Assembly: GCA_018992685.1 (NCBI GenBank)
Contig: JACVGT010000008.1
Coordinates: 62,001-126,000 of the forward strand
DNA length: 64,000 nt
Origin: Theionarchaea archaeon
GTDB taxonomy: Archaea; Methanobacteriota_B; Thermococci; Methanofastidiosales; SZ-28-30
Direction of reading: 5' to 3'
How positions within the stretch are numbered: position 1 is the first letter of the stretch; each line of letters begins with the position of its first letter. Both the position numbers and the translations under genes were made by a program. Below, one piece after another: positions 5,399-9,603 of the stretch. Under the pieces are notes generated by a model. That model saw only the letters and a program-made list of their open reading frames with translations. It was not told where the DNA came from and searched no databases.

Positions 5399-6766
5399 AT
5401 GTCTCTCCAGAAGTTCTTCAGTCCCAAAAGTGTTGCAGTGGTGGGTGCTTCCAGAACCTTCGGGAAGGCAGGAAATGTCATCCTTCTAAACTTGCTTAAT
5501 CTCGGATATGAAGGGAGAATATACCCGGTAAACCCCAGGGCAGACACTATTTTTGAGTTGAAATGTTATCCCACTGTATCTTCCATTCCTGAGGTCGTGG
5601 ATGTGGCAGTCATTGCCACACCATCCATTTTTGTGCCTGAAATCATGAGAGACATTCAAGCCAAGGGAGTGACCAACGTCGTCATTATTTCTTCAGGATT
5701 TTCCGAAGGGAGTGAGGAAGGAAAAAGCCTCCACCAGGAGGTTTTAGCCATAGCTCAGAAGGCACACATTCGCATCATAGGCCCCAACACCACGGGCATC
5801 ACGTCAAGTGAGAGCAAATTCTGTACATCTTTTGTGCCCATCGAGGAGGTACCTCCCGGCAAGGTGGCTTTTGTTGCCCAGACAGGACTGTTCCTGGGGG
5901 TTCTGCTGGAGACCATACTATCAGAAGAACATTTCGGCATTTCCAAGGTGGTGGGCCTGGGGAATAAAATGGATGTGGAGGATTCTGAAGTCCTGGAGTA
6001 CCTGGCCCAGGACGGGGAGACTGAAATCATGTGCTTCTACATTGAAGGACTGAAAAAGGCGCGGAAATTCTATGAAGTCGCCAAGAAAGTCACCCCGAAG
6101 AAGCCTGTCCTGGTGGTGAAGTCAGGGGTCACAGGAGAAGGATCGAAAGCAGCCGTTTCTCATACTGCTTCTCTATCAGGGAATGACCAGTTGTTCTCTG
6201 CCATGTGTCAGCAAGCTGGCATCATTCGGGCTTCTGACCTGGAAGAACTGGTGGAAGCTGCCAAAGCATTTGCATTCCAGCCCTTACCAAAGGGGAAGAG
6301 AACAGCGCTTGTCCACTATACCGGGGCGGGGTGTGTGATGGGAGCAGACAGTATTGTAAGGGAAGGGTTGGAAATGGCCAGTCTTTCAGAAGAGACTCTC
6401 GCTCCTCTCCGTAAGATAACACCTGAATGGCACACCCTCCGGAACCCAGTAGATTTATGGCCATCCATAGAGTCAGCTGGAGCAGACAAAGCGTTTTCCA
6501 CCGTTGTCAAGTCACTCATTGAGGATGACGGTGTGGATGCTGTGGTACTTGCTGTGGGCTGCATGAGGGGATTTCCCCTTGAATGGCCCGAGATGCGGGA
6601 GTTTTATGGAAAAAAACCTGTGCTCATTGCAGTGGAAGGGGACAGGGAACTGGGATTTTCCGCACTTGAAAAGCTGGAAGCACAGAAATTTCCCTGTTTC
6701 AAGAGTGTTCAGAGGGCAATTCGTGCTCTGGGCCACATGGTAGCGTACAGGTCACATTTAAAGTAG
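5399..6766 (+). CDS. ADP-forming acyl-CoA synthetase, alpha subunit
   Basis: 455 residues, the usual length of the separate alpha subunit (CoA-binding plus ligase domains) of NDP-forming acyl-CoA synthetases, which make ATP from acyl-CoA in archaeal fermentation. The CoA-binding Rossmann domain starts FFSPKSVAVVGAS and continues through IYPVNP. GPNTTGIT marks the next domain, and AVSHTASLSGND contains the conserved phospho-histidine. No ATP-grasp beta domain is fused and none is encoded elsewhere in the window, so the partner must lie outside it. The ATG at 5399 follows GGTGATGAG; an upstream ATG at 5354 would overlap the preceding gene. Confidence 0.85.
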   Translation: MSLQKFFSPKSVAVVGASRTFGKAGNVILLNLLNLGYEGRIYPVNPRADTIFELKCYPTVSSIPEVVDVAVIATPSIFVPEIMRDIQAKGVTNVVIISSGFSEGSEEGKSLHQEVLAIAQKAHIRIIGPNTTGITSSESKFCTSFVPIEEVPPGKVAFVAQTGLFLGVLLETILSEEHFGISKVVGLGNKMDVEDSEVLEYLAQDGETEIMCFYIEGLKKARKFYEVAKKVTPKKPVLVVKSGVTGEGSKAAVSHTASLSGNDQLFSAMCQQAGIIRASDLEELVEAAKAFAFQPLPKGKRTALVHYTGAGCVMGADSIVREGLEMASLSEETLAPLRKITPEWHTLRNPVDLWPSIESAGADKAFSTVVKSLIEDDGVDAVVLAVGCMRGFPLEWPEMREFYGKKPVLIAVEGDRELGFSALEKLEAQKFPCFKSVQRAIRALGHMVAYRSHLK

Positions 6767-6817: not shown

Positions 6818-8152
6818 TTATGGCGTGACTGGCTGTTCTGGCCACGGCTGTCCCCGTGTAGCGCACATCCAGGGATCGGGCATGCACACAGTCCCATAGT
6901 GCTGAAGCACTCTCGCTTTGCAGCCGCCTCTGCATTCCTGGACATGAGAACAGGTTCCGCAAGTCATGCTTTCTGTTGTACACTGCCTGAAAGGCTCGAA
7001 AATTGGACTGTTCATCCAAAGGTACTCCATTGATTCTTCTCTGAGGCTGCCTGCTGTATGCTCAGGACTGCTCAACACAGGACACAGCACCACATCCCCA
7101 CTCGCAGTCACCGTCACCATGGACGTCCCCACCCCGCAGAAAGAGTAGGGTGATTCCGTATTCTGCATTTCTGACGCGAATGTGAGCTCTAAACGTTGAG
7201 GAGTTTTCTCCTCAAAGGTCCGACACTGTTGTGATACCTCTTCACCCATTTCCAGAGGCGGAATGAGATGTTCGTGCTCTGTGCCTCTCCCTGCCCCCAT
7301 GAATCGATCGAAAATCATCTCGCGGACACCTAGATCCACCAGCATCTGGATGACGTTGGATAACTCTCCCACATTTTCTGTGTACACCACGGTATTGGAG
7401 CGGACCGGTATCCCATGGTTGACCAGCCGAGTGATACCTTCTACGGTCTTGTCAAAGGTATCCTTCCCCCTGATCTTCTGGTGGAGTTCTCTCGTACCGT
7501 CAAGACTTACCATGACTTTCTCAGGGTTCAAAGCCTCCAACTGGCACACCGTGTCCTCGGTCAGGAGGATACCATTGGTGAACAGGTTCACCCCAACAGT
7601 ATTATCCACGATATATTCCAGAAGATCGAAGATGTCGCTCCGCAGGAGGGGTTCTCCCCCGGTGACAGCAATGCTCACCACACCCAGAGAAGCCAGTGAG
7701 TCTATTGCAGACATCCAGTCTGCTGTATCCAATTCTTCCCCATGTGATGTACCTGCTTTCTTGTAGCAGTGAATACAGGTCAGGTTACACTTATTGGTTA
7801 CCTCAAGATATGCAATATCAATGGGCCACTCCATCTCACTGCTCTTCATGATGACGGGCACATGCACTGGCTGACTGGAACCGTCCAGAAAATGGAGGTC
7901 ACGCAGGAAATCAATGGACTTTGAAGCCTTGTTCCTCACTCCTCTCTCAGGTTCGCTGTACAGCCCGCACAGTTCCTGTACAAGATCATCAGCTGTCCTT
8001 GTGCCGTCGCATAATACCAGTAACTCCTTTAAATCCTCATTTGCTTTCCCCTGAATTCTCCTCTTCAAATCCTTTACTAGATATTTCCCCCCTTTTTGCT
8101 TCTTGATGACAAGAGAGCCCGAACTCACCAAATACTCTTTTTCATCAGTCAT
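6818..8152 (-). CDS. Radical SAM/SPASM peptide maturase with N-terminal PqqD-like recognition domain
   Basis: 444 residues. Residues about 8-90 look like a PqqD-type RiPP recognition element (IQGKANEDLKELLVLCDGTR, DDLVQELCGLY). A radical SAM core follows with C122-x3-C126-x2-C129 (CNLTCIHC), TGGEPLLR and VSLDGTRELHQKIRG. The C-terminus is a SPASM-type auxiliary cluster region with CGVGTSMVTVTASGDVVLCP, CGTCSHVQECRGGC and a final C-x5-C. Such enzymes install C-C, C-S, C-O or oxidative changes in ribosomal peptides. The start ATG at 8150-8152 overlaps the upstream radical SAM gene by 8 bp and follows GGGAGG by 6 nt. It is the third gene of the precursor-enzyme operon. Confidence 0.88.
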   Translation of the reverse strand: MTDEKEYLVSSGSLVIKKQKGGKYLVKDLKRRIQGKANEDLKELLVLCDGTRTADDLVQELCGLYSEPERGVRNKASKSIDFLRDLHFLDGSSQPVHVPVIMKSSEMEWPIDIAYLEVTNKCNLTCIHCYKKAGTSHGEELDTADWMSAIDSLASLGVVSIAVTGGEPLLRSDIFDLLEYIVDNTVGVNLFTNGILLTEDTVCQLEALNPEKVMVSLDGTRELHQKIRGKDTFDKTVEGITRLVNHGIPVRSNTVVYTENVGELSNVIQMLVDLGVREMIFDRFMGAGRGTEHEHLIPPLEMGEEVSQQCRTFEEKTPQRLELTFASEMQNTESPYSFCGVGTSMVTVTASGDVVLCPVLSSPEHTAGSLREESMEYLWMNSPIFEPFRQCTTESMTCGTCSHVQECRGGCKARVLQHYGTVCMPDPWMCATRGQPWPEQPVTP

Positions 8153-9197
8153 ATCCATCCTCCCAGCTTGCTGCAGCCAGCATTTGAGACCACGGGATAG
8201 CCTCATACGGATATGATACCACCTGTTCATCAAAGACCTTCCTGCAGAGGGCAAGAAACCCACGGTGCTGAGGACTGCCGAAATATTCCTGGACCACATC
8301 CATCAACGACTTCTCCCTGATGTTCCCCATGTACAGACGGGGGTTGAGACAGCTGTCAACAGGCACCACATTCCCGTCAGGCAGGATGATGAGCTCCCGG
8401 GGATCATTTTCAGCATGTCTGTGGCATTCTGAGCCAAAGCATGCATATGCATTACAGGGGTGTTCAGTCAGGACCTTCTTGCTGTGGATTCCCATGTATA
8501 CGCTGGTACTGGCCAGGTACTGCCCGTACAGCCTCGTGGTGAATTCAGCCAGTTCATCAATTTCCTTTTCAGACAGACAGGAAGATGCAATTTCCCGGGC
8601 TCTTCCTCCCACGAAGAGGGGCTCCAGTTTCAGACTCTCTGCTCCCAGGTCAGAGGCTGTCTCGGCAATCCATTCTATATATGGAAAGCTCTTCTTCGTT
8701 ACCGTAAACTGGAGGGCAAAAGGGACATCTTTCTTCCTGAGAGCTTCAATACCCCTCATAGCACTTTGAAATGCACCCTTCATCCCCCTGAAGGTATCAT
8801 GGTACTCCTGAGGACCATCGACGCTGATGAGAACACACCTCACCAGGTCCCGCACTTTTTCTGCCAACTCCTCTGTGATGAGCGTCCCATTGGAAACGAA
8901 ATCGGGTGAGAACCCTTCCTCAACTGCTACTTCCAGGATACGGGTAAGGTCTGGATGCAGGGTAGGTTCTCCTCCTGAAAATGCTATTCGGGTGGTGTTC
9001 AGCTTCTTCATGTCCCTGACTATGGACAAGACCTCTTCTGCAGTGAACTGGTGCACGGGGACGTTCTGAGCATTGATGAAGCAGTGCTGACACGAGAGGT
9101 TACACCAGTCAGTGATATGAAAGAGAAACGTCACTTCCTCTTCAAAAAACCTCAGGGCATGCTGGTGCACACCCTGAGAATCAATCGGGGTTGTCAT
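8145..9197 (-). CDS. Radical SAM enzyme, probable peptide maturase
   Basis: 350 residues. The radical SAM motif C32-x3-C36-x2-C39 (CNLSCQHC) lies near the N-terminus, followed by FSGGEPTLHPDL and ISVDGPQEYHDTFRG. A C-terminal cysteine-bearing segment (NAYACFGSECHRH, ILPDGNVVPVDSCLNP, YMGNI) resembles a SPASM/twitch domain but lacks the final clustered cysteines of a full SPASM. The ATG at 9195-9197 is chosen over a TTG 6 nt earlier because AGGTGG lies 7 nt before it. It starts 12 nt after the 30-aa precursor stop codon, so its ribosome site overlaps that stop codon. Its gene end overlaps the next enzyme. Confidence 0.87.
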   Translation of the reverse strand: MTTPIDSQGVHQHALRFFEEEVTFLFHITDWCNLSCQHCFINAQNVPVHQFTAEEVLSIVRDMKKLNTTRIAFSGGEPTLHPDLTRILEVAVEEGFSPDFVSNGTLITEELAEKVRDLVRCVLISVDGPQEYHDTFRGMKGAFQSAMRGIEALRKKDVPFALQFTVTKKSFPYIEWIAETASDLGAESLKLEPLFVGGRAREIASSCLSEKEIDELAEFTTRLYGQYLASTSVYMGIHSKKVLTEHPCNAYACFGSECHRHAENDPRELIILPDGNVVPVDSCLNPRLYMGNIREKSLMDVVQEYFGSPQHRGFLALCRKVFDEQVVSYPYEAIPWSQMLAAASWEDGYD

Positions 9198-9209
9198 GTA
9201 CAATCCACC

Positions 9210-9302
9210 TTAGTATGCAGGCAGCGAAGGCTGCGGCACGATCTTGGTCGCAACAGACTGTATCTTCAGTGCCATGAATTCAGGCATAAATACGTCTTTC
9301 AT
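9210..9302 (-). CDS. Putative RiPP precursor peptide 1 (30 aa)
   Basis: A 30-codon frame from an ATG at 9300-9302 to TAA. GGTGA lies 4 nt before the ATG and a TATA box (CATTTATAAG on this strand) lies about 31-41 nt before it. The product has no cysteine: MKDVFMPEFM at the start (leader-like) and IVPQPSLPAY at the end (proline-rich, C-terminal Tyr). It is immediately followed by two radical SAM genes. It aligns without gaps, from the first Phe on, with precursor 2 at 9514-9603, sharing F-x-P-E-F, Gln, Lys and P-x-P-S. Position, size, strong translation signals and a related second copy make a modified peptide the best reading; the product is unknown. Confidence 0.8.
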   Translation of the reverse strand: MKDVFMPEFMALKIQSVATKIVPQPSLPAY

Positions 9303-9332
9303 GGTCTCACCTCGGTGAGGTATATTCTGAGA

Positions 9333-9343
9333 ACTTATAAATG
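9333..9343 (-). promoter_or_regulatory. TATA box of the precursor 1/radical SAM operon
   Basis: On the minus strand the sequence reads CATTTATAAGT, about 31-41 nt before the precursor ATG, leaving room for a short leader with the GGTGA ribosome site. Precursor 2 has the same CATTTATAA core. Confidence 0.65.
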
Positions 9344-9465
9344 TTTTGTAGATTGAACATATGTCAGAGATATGAGTAAAAAAAACACCTTCTCCACATG
9401 TCATACGGTCCAGAATAAAAACTCATGAGCAGGGAACAAAGATCGACATACATGCCCAACCCTCA

Positions 9466-9480
9466 GAAAAAAAAGAAAGA
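9466..9480 (-). terminator. T-run terminator after precursor 2
   Basis: On the minus strand TCTTTCTTTTTTTTCTG begins about 34 nt after the stop codon of the 29-aa peptide. It would end that peptide message before the next promoter, making precursor 2 a single-gene unit. Confidence 0.5.
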
Positions 9481-9513
9481 AATGGACTGCTACCCTGATC
9501 ACTGGAGAAGAAC

Positions 9514-9603
9514 TCACGGCACAATAATCGAAGGAATAGGCCATTGCTTGATAATGATAGCCTGTTCGTTGTCTACCAAGAACTCGGGTTGGAACTTCTT
9601 CAT
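9514..9603 (-). CDS. Putative RiPP precursor peptide 2 (29 aa)
   Basis: A 29-codon frame from an ATG at 9601-9603 to TGA. A very strong ribosome site (GGAGGGAGGTGAG) precedes it, and a TATA box (CATTTATAAAG) lies 34-44 nt before the ATG. The peptide starts MKKFQPEFLV and ends KQWPIPSIIVP. It has no cysteine, one Trp in the core, and a hydrophobic, proline-rich end. Compared with precursor 1, F, P, E, F, Q, K, P, P and S fall at the same spacing, which is unlikely by chance in peptides this short. It is on the same strand, about 210 nt upstream of precursor 1, and appears to be transcribed separately. Confidence 0.75.
   Translation of the reverse strand: MKKFQPEFLVDNEQAIIIKQWPIPSIIVP

Follow-up and report, generated by a model that had tools for sequence, protein, structure and literature searches.

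The precursors of ribosomally synthesized and post-translationally modified peptides (RiPPs) usually consist of a conserved leader, a variable linker and a conserved core. To our knowledge few archaeal RiPP products have been described, and what is known of RiPP maturation by radical S-adenosylmethionine (SAM) enzymes is mostly bacterial. Pyrroloquinoline quinone (PQQ) derives from PqqA, a tiny Cys-free precursor with a Glu-x3-Tyr core, through PqqD and the SPASM radical SAM enzyme PqqE, and mycofactocin from a precursor of about 30 aa that ends in an invariant Cys-Gly-Val-Tyr; among the arguments of Haft for mycofactocin as a cofactor are the lack of genes for export and immunity and the invariance of the core (PMC3023750). 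The thioether-bridged sactibiotic thuricin CD has two related precursors, Trn-alpha and Trn-beta, and two radical SAM maturases, TrnC and TrnD, while the sactipeptide maturase SkfB and the streptide maturase SuiB combine a RiPP recognition element (RRE), a radical SAM core and a SPASM domain in one protein. In this study, we describe a locus in a stretch of 64,000 nucleotides, hereafter the window, from a Theionarchaea archaeon (contig JACVGT010000008.1, positions 62,001 to 126,000 of the forward strand; genome G000, 3.0 Mb), in which two small peptide genes, P1 and P2, precede two radical SAM genes, RSAM-A and RSAM-B. This cassette very probably encodes a radical-SAM RiPP pathway that makes a modified peptide; the precursor family and the enzyme pair are new, within a known kind of system.

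An earlier note on this DNA had given the coordinates and sizes of the two peptide genes, the gene order and a spacing of 12 nt between P2 and RSAM-A, all of which proved correct when re-read from the sequence. On the minus strand the order is P1, P2, RSAM-A, RSAM-B:

P1, 9514-9603, minus strand: 29-aa precursor-like peptide MKKFQPEFLVDNEQAIIIKQWPIPSIIVP; orthologue at L010 3379-3468.
P2, 9210-9302, minus strand: 30-aa precursor-like peptide MKDVFMPEFMALKIQSVATKIVPQPSLPAY; orthologue at L010 3677-3769.
RSAM-A, 8145-9197, minus strand: 350 aa, radical SAM protein with the motif CNLSCQHC; its C-terminal cluster domain is reduced and non-canonical.
RSAM-B, 6818-8152, minus strand: 444 aa, with a PqqD-like RRE (about residues 1-90), a radical SAM core (CNLTCIHC) and the full seven-Cys SPASM motif.

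That the two peptides are related, as the note had held, is borne out by their similarity (shuffle p = 0.0002) and by a comparison with the 1847 open reading frame (ORF) reads of the window that are 20-60 aa long, in which P1 was the top match to P2 after P2 itself. They have in common the pattern FxPEF...Q...PxPS, with M1, K2, F5, P7, E8, F9, Q15, P23, P25 and S26 invariant, and neither contains Cys. P1, which ends in PIPSIIVP with Pro as its last residue, has a KxW and no Tyr; P2, which ends in PSLPAY with Tyr as its last residue, has no Trp. Both are found again in a second Theionarchaea genome (G001, Theionarchaea archaeon isolate SZ_28-30, locus JACVGW010000073.1, about 85% identical), where the gcvP genes, P1, P2, RSAM-A, RSAM-B and a convergent ligase follow in the same order. 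This single orthologous locus retains both short ORFs, as the note would have it, together with their Shine-Dalgarno (SD) sequences and stops, and there P1 reads MKSFQPEFLVDSEQAVIVKKWPIPSIIVP and P2 MKDVFMPEFMALNMQSTTAMIKPLPSLPAY. Identity between the two genomes is 77% over P1 and 83% over P2, and 67-71% over the surrounding non-coding DNA. The 21 base changes in P1 are distributed as 5, 2 and 14 over the three codon positions and leave 13 synonymous versus 5 replacement codons, a pattern that is lost in the two other frames. Among the 16 base changes in P2, the eight replacements all lie within residues 13-24, and the leader (residues 1-12) and the C terminus PSLPAY (residues 25-30) carry synonymous changes only. 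P1 and P2 are real genes under coding selection. The orthologue of RSAM-A is 84% identical and that of RSAM-B 75-79% identical; the latter is broken in G001 by what looks like an assembly gap, since both pieces overlap in the query around a run of N.

The peptide family has a very narrow distribution. When 396 archaeal genomes were searched with a profile of the peptides, copies turned up solely in the two Theionarchaea genomes, two in each, and 115 genomes of the phylum gave no additional copy at a meaningful E-value. Weak matches in Thermococcales (E 0.03-0.1) were dropped as partial and in other frames, and a search of viral contigs found none. P1 and P2 had no match in NCBIfam at E<=1, MftA included, and the statement that the family matches none known stands for Pfam, NCBIfam and the 396 archaeal genomes. 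RSAM-A likewise has one true orthologue in the genome contigs searched, the others being distant bacterial radical SAM proteins, and RSAM-B is confined among the 396 archaeal genomes to Theionarchaea, save for a distant pair in another archaeon (G177).

The reading of RSAM-B as a PqqD-like, radical SAM and SPASM protein, proposed in the earlier note, is upheld by several lines of evidence. Pfam detects Radical_SAM (2e-26), SPASM (7e-07) and, weakly, PqqD (0.011); in the genome scan for PqqD it scores 19.9 bits, short of the cut-off of 23.4, and its N terminus aligns over 74 columns to the stand-alone PqqDs found in this lineage (hhalign P 1.2e-4). The cysteine motifs CX3CX2C, CX12GX4C and CX2CX5CX3C, with further Cys, form the full SPASM set. 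The predicted model of RSAM-B matches SkfB (Z 26.9, rmsd (root-mean-square deviation) 6.0, 296 residues aligned), SuiB (Z 24.7-25.9), anSME, MoaA and PqqE, matches of a model that indicate fold and not function. The AlphaFold models have a mean predicted local distance difference test (pLDDT) score of 63 (RSAM-B) and 60, with about 50 for the N terminus of RSAM-B; this low confidence is due to the small number of alignable sequences. RSAM-A has the radical SAM motif and core and lacks a complete SPASM motif. Neither enzyme reaches the cut-off of any curated family model: RSAM-B scores highest with the peptide maturases MftC (171 bits, cut-off 265) and StsB (148, cut-off 625) and NirJ2 (144, cut-off 500), with PqqE at 135 vs 381 bits, and the ScmE and ScmF (SynChlorMet) models give 131 and 115 bits with RSAM-B and 93 and 99 bits with RSAM-A (cut-off 400). 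The view that the enzymes do not belong to the heme or tungsten families agrees with these results, both scoring far below the respective cut-offs.

Each peptide gene has its own TATA element and strong SD, in keeping with the strong ribosome sites and TATA boxes that the note had reported, and the signals around the peptide genes are as follows:

SD of P1, 9610-9617, minus strand: GGAGGTGA, strong; kept in L010.
SD of P2, 9306-9313, minus strand: GAGGTGAG, strong; conserved in the second species.
Putative TATA-type promoter element of P1, 9637-9645, minus strand: TTTATAAAG; aligned in both species.
Putative TATA-type element of P2, 9334-9341, minus strand: TTTATAAG; predicted promoter of a P2-RSAM-A-RSAM-B operon.
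T-rich run 3' of P1, about 9465-9484, minus strand: probable archaeal terminator; T-rich in both species.

Because of the T-run that follows it, P1 is probably a separate transcript. RSAM-A starts at ATG 9197 behind the SD GGTGG, and RSAM-B most likely at ATG 8152, since its orthologue opens at the same Met (MPSEKEFL / MTDEKEYL); with this start the two genes overlap by 8 nt. A start of RSAM-B at 8299, which would give the longest ORF, is unsupported, the Met of the orthologue lying at the equivalent internal position. The P2 promoter and the stretch directly upstream of it (9334-9385, TACTCATATCTCTGACAT..TGTTCAAT) are conserved above the adjoining non-coding DNA and perhaps contain a regulator site. 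The upstream neighbours are Sec61-beta and two glycine-cleavage P subunits; downstream lie a convergent CoA-ligase-type protein and, further out, an aminoacyl-tRNA synthetase. Among the flanking genes scanned, none was recognised as encoding a transporter, a protease or peptidase, or an immunity protein.

We propose that P1 and P2 would be tiny precursors of a peptide-derived small molecule. The N-terminal FxPEF leader common to both would be bound by the PqqD-like domain of RSAM-B, and RSAM-B and RSAM-A would then modify the fixed, Cys-free C-terminal cores PIPSIIVP and PSLPAY. P2 would be translated right before the enzymes, and P1, from its own promoter, would use the same maturases. We infer that both peptides serve as substrates, with leader binding by the RRE and modification at the C terminus, and the shared leader motif and the joint conservation of the two peptides support this. 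Since P1 and P2 have no Cys, sactipeptide or thioether chemistry is excluded, and the formation of C-C or C-O bonds, epimerisation and oxidative decarboxylation are candidate chemistries.

Of the systems described above, mycofactocin is one that the locus resembles in outline. The precursors are of similar length and the C terminus of P2 is invariant and ends in Tyr; the SPASM enzyme RSAM-B has MftC as its top NCBIfam score, recognition is of the PqqD type, and a transporter or immunity gene is lacking. In contrast to mycofactocin, P1 and P2 have no MftA match and end in IVP and PAY rather than CGVY, RSAM-B falls below the MftC cut-off, the PqqD domain is fused rather than separate, a second radical SAM enzyme and two precursors are present, and no Mft-type partner genes occur in the scanned flanks. 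Chemistry of the MftC type on the final Tyr of P2 is a reasonable guess to begin with, prompted by this residue and by the MftC-like score, but P1 has no Tyr. The locus resembles the PQQ system in its tiny Cys-free precursors, in the logic of PqqD and a SPASM radical SAM enzyme and in the close fold match of PqqE to the RSAM-B model; it differs in that P1 has no Tyr and P2 no Glu-x3-Tyr core, in the PqqE score below cut-off and in that neither PqqB nor PqqC was seen in the scanned flanks. SkfB and SuiB, to which the RSAM-B model is closest in structure, have the same domain architecture, but at 26% and about 15% identity and with other precursors, and the Lys-Trp chemistry of the streptide type is conceivable for P1, which has a KxW, and not for P2. 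Formylglycine formation, suggested by an SxP in P2 and a distant sulfatase-maturase score of RSAM-A, is left as a guess because P1 has no SxP.

Within the RiPP reading, it might be argued that P2 is the sole substrate, P1 being either a regulator or a duplicate that has diverged or serves as a decoy. P2 alone lies in the enzyme operon, and the two peptides end differently, in Pro and in Tyr; however, coding selection is clearer in P1 than in P2, and P1 has retained both the FxPEF and the PxPS motif, which makes this explanation unlikely. A second possibility is that the products are bacteriocin-like or two-component secreted peptides. Two related precursors with two radical SAM enzymes recall thuricin CD (PMC12093266), and the separate promoter of P1 would fit such a system. 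Thuricin CD is, however, thioether-bridged, and with no Cys in either peptide a sactionine cannot form; the scanned flanks hold no transporter, protease or immunity gene, and the cores are identical in the two species, while bacteriocin systems usually diversify. We regard secreted peptides of this kind as quite unlikely, and the missing export, protease and immunity genes, the identical cores and the fixed housekeeping neighbourhood suggest, weakly and by analogy, that the product is intracellular and cofactor- or signal-like. Finally, that the enzymes act on a heme-type tetrapyrrole or another protein, with the short ORFs as regulatory leader peptides (upstream ORFs), might be suspected from the top matches of RSAM-A (AhbD, NirJ1 and NirJ2) and from the distant NirJ2/AhbD-like pair at L122, which is without an evident precursor, but is very improbable given scores far under the cut-offs (126 vs 500 bits for RSAM-A with AhbD and 144 vs 500 bits for RSAM-B with NirJ2), a match of RSAM-A to AhbD and its relatives that is limited to the core half and leaves the C-terminal half unmatched, the predicted peptide-recognition domain of the adjoining enzyme, the promoter-like element and T-run that make P1 no leader of the enzymes, and the mutual relationship and constrained amino acid sequence of P1 and P2.

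Several observations weigh against a radical-SAM RiPP pathway. The PqqD match of RSAM-B lies under the Pfam cut-off, and the putative recognition domain rests mainly on sequence, the models being of low confidence. The best family scores of RSAM-A are with heme enzymes of the AhbD/NirJ type, AhbD at about a quarter of its cut-off. The nearest pair outside Theionarchaea (L122:5261-7571, in the distant archaeon G177), in which the first of two adjacent radical SAM proteins has a PqqD-like N-terminal extension and the second is AhbD-like, also scores highest with NirJ2/AhbD, below cut-off, and no convincing precursor ORF was found upstream of it. There is no peptidase near P1 and P2, the codon-position bias of P2 (5, 4 and 7) is weak by itself, and the locus occurs in two genomes only, so that conservation is a single comparison.

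The cassette belongs to a lineage that is unusually rich in such enzymes. The genome of the window has 23 SPASM domains and G001 has 36, whereas 113 other genomes of the phylum have 0-9 each. PqqD domains number at least 14 in each Theionarchaea genome, and none of 394 other archaeal genomes exceeds 5; at a looser threshold 22 PqqD matches are found in the genome of the window. In the stretches around radical SAM genes, many of the Theionarchaea radical SAM and SPASM enzymes adjoin conserved small ORFs, and relatives of RSAM-B at L078, L023 and L079 likewise have small peptide ORFs, conserved or repeated, as neighbours. The lineage is apparently a hotspot for RiPP systems of the radical SAM type. 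A full-text search of open-licence papers found none linking Theionarchaea to RiPPs, and the main text of a 2025 survey of archaeal RiPPs makes no mention of this group.

Other precursor-like families were seen in the two genomes. A leader with five (window genome) or four (G001) tandem CALEVQPTF units, probably a multi-core precursor, is encoded directly upstream of two radical SAM genes in both species (L035:5883-6110, minus; L102:6550-6726, minus), and two tandem peptides with an EIDQCMCCA core, kept in both species, lie by a radical SAM and a PqqD gene (L022:6155-6637, minus; L087:3391-3863, minus). A 31-aa peptide directly upstream of a radical SAM gene ends in IGSVNPIVFPKGGIVWAP, identical in both species (L025:4715-4810, minus; L084:3419-3514, minus). 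The 28-aa peptide MYAKPMLEEITVRITADKWLISLPALPY (L029:3292-3378, plus; L089:3941-4027, minus; 11 synonymous vs 2 replacement codons) adjoins a radical SAM protein, a PqqD and two more proteins with radical SAM motifs; its C terminus SLPALPY resembles the end of P2, though not significantly, and tests for homology of P1 and P2 to the L029 and L025 peptides gave no significance (p 0.09 to 0.81). The family MKFNV[RK]K.E..STT...PW.E.K.QCL has several paralogues next to PqqD-fused radical SAM enzymes (L023:4030-4128, L036:4744-4842, L079:3500-3604 and 6611-6709). Five near-identical short peptides, MEPRVEDYLDATCVAST[GA]G..., occur by radical SAM genes in two loci of G001 (L078 and L088), where L097 and L081 also have repeated small Cys-containing peptide genes by radical SAM genes (MKCEKVE...CPPYPCGCINI; MEEID.LLSPEM...), and a Cys/Gly-rich family with a start like MKA..LNKK.WTD lies beside paired radical SAM enzymes at L033, L092, L096, L099 and L108.

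It is possible, and we put it forward tentatively, that the product of the locus is a cofactor or signal new to archaea and derived from peptides, made from two Cys-free mini-precursors by one enzyme with RRE and SPASM domains and another radical SAM enzyme, with new chemistry on Pro/Ser/Tyr-rich C termini, and that the lineage is a hotspot of diverse radical-SAM RiPPs that has gone unrecognised. With a compact four-gene cassette and Cys-free cores, known thioether chemistry is ruled out and the modification must be of another type. Given the dozens of similar enzymes and the other precursor-like families, Theionarchaea would be rich in peptide chemistry that has apparently gone unreported, and they may also be the source of a new redox cofactor.

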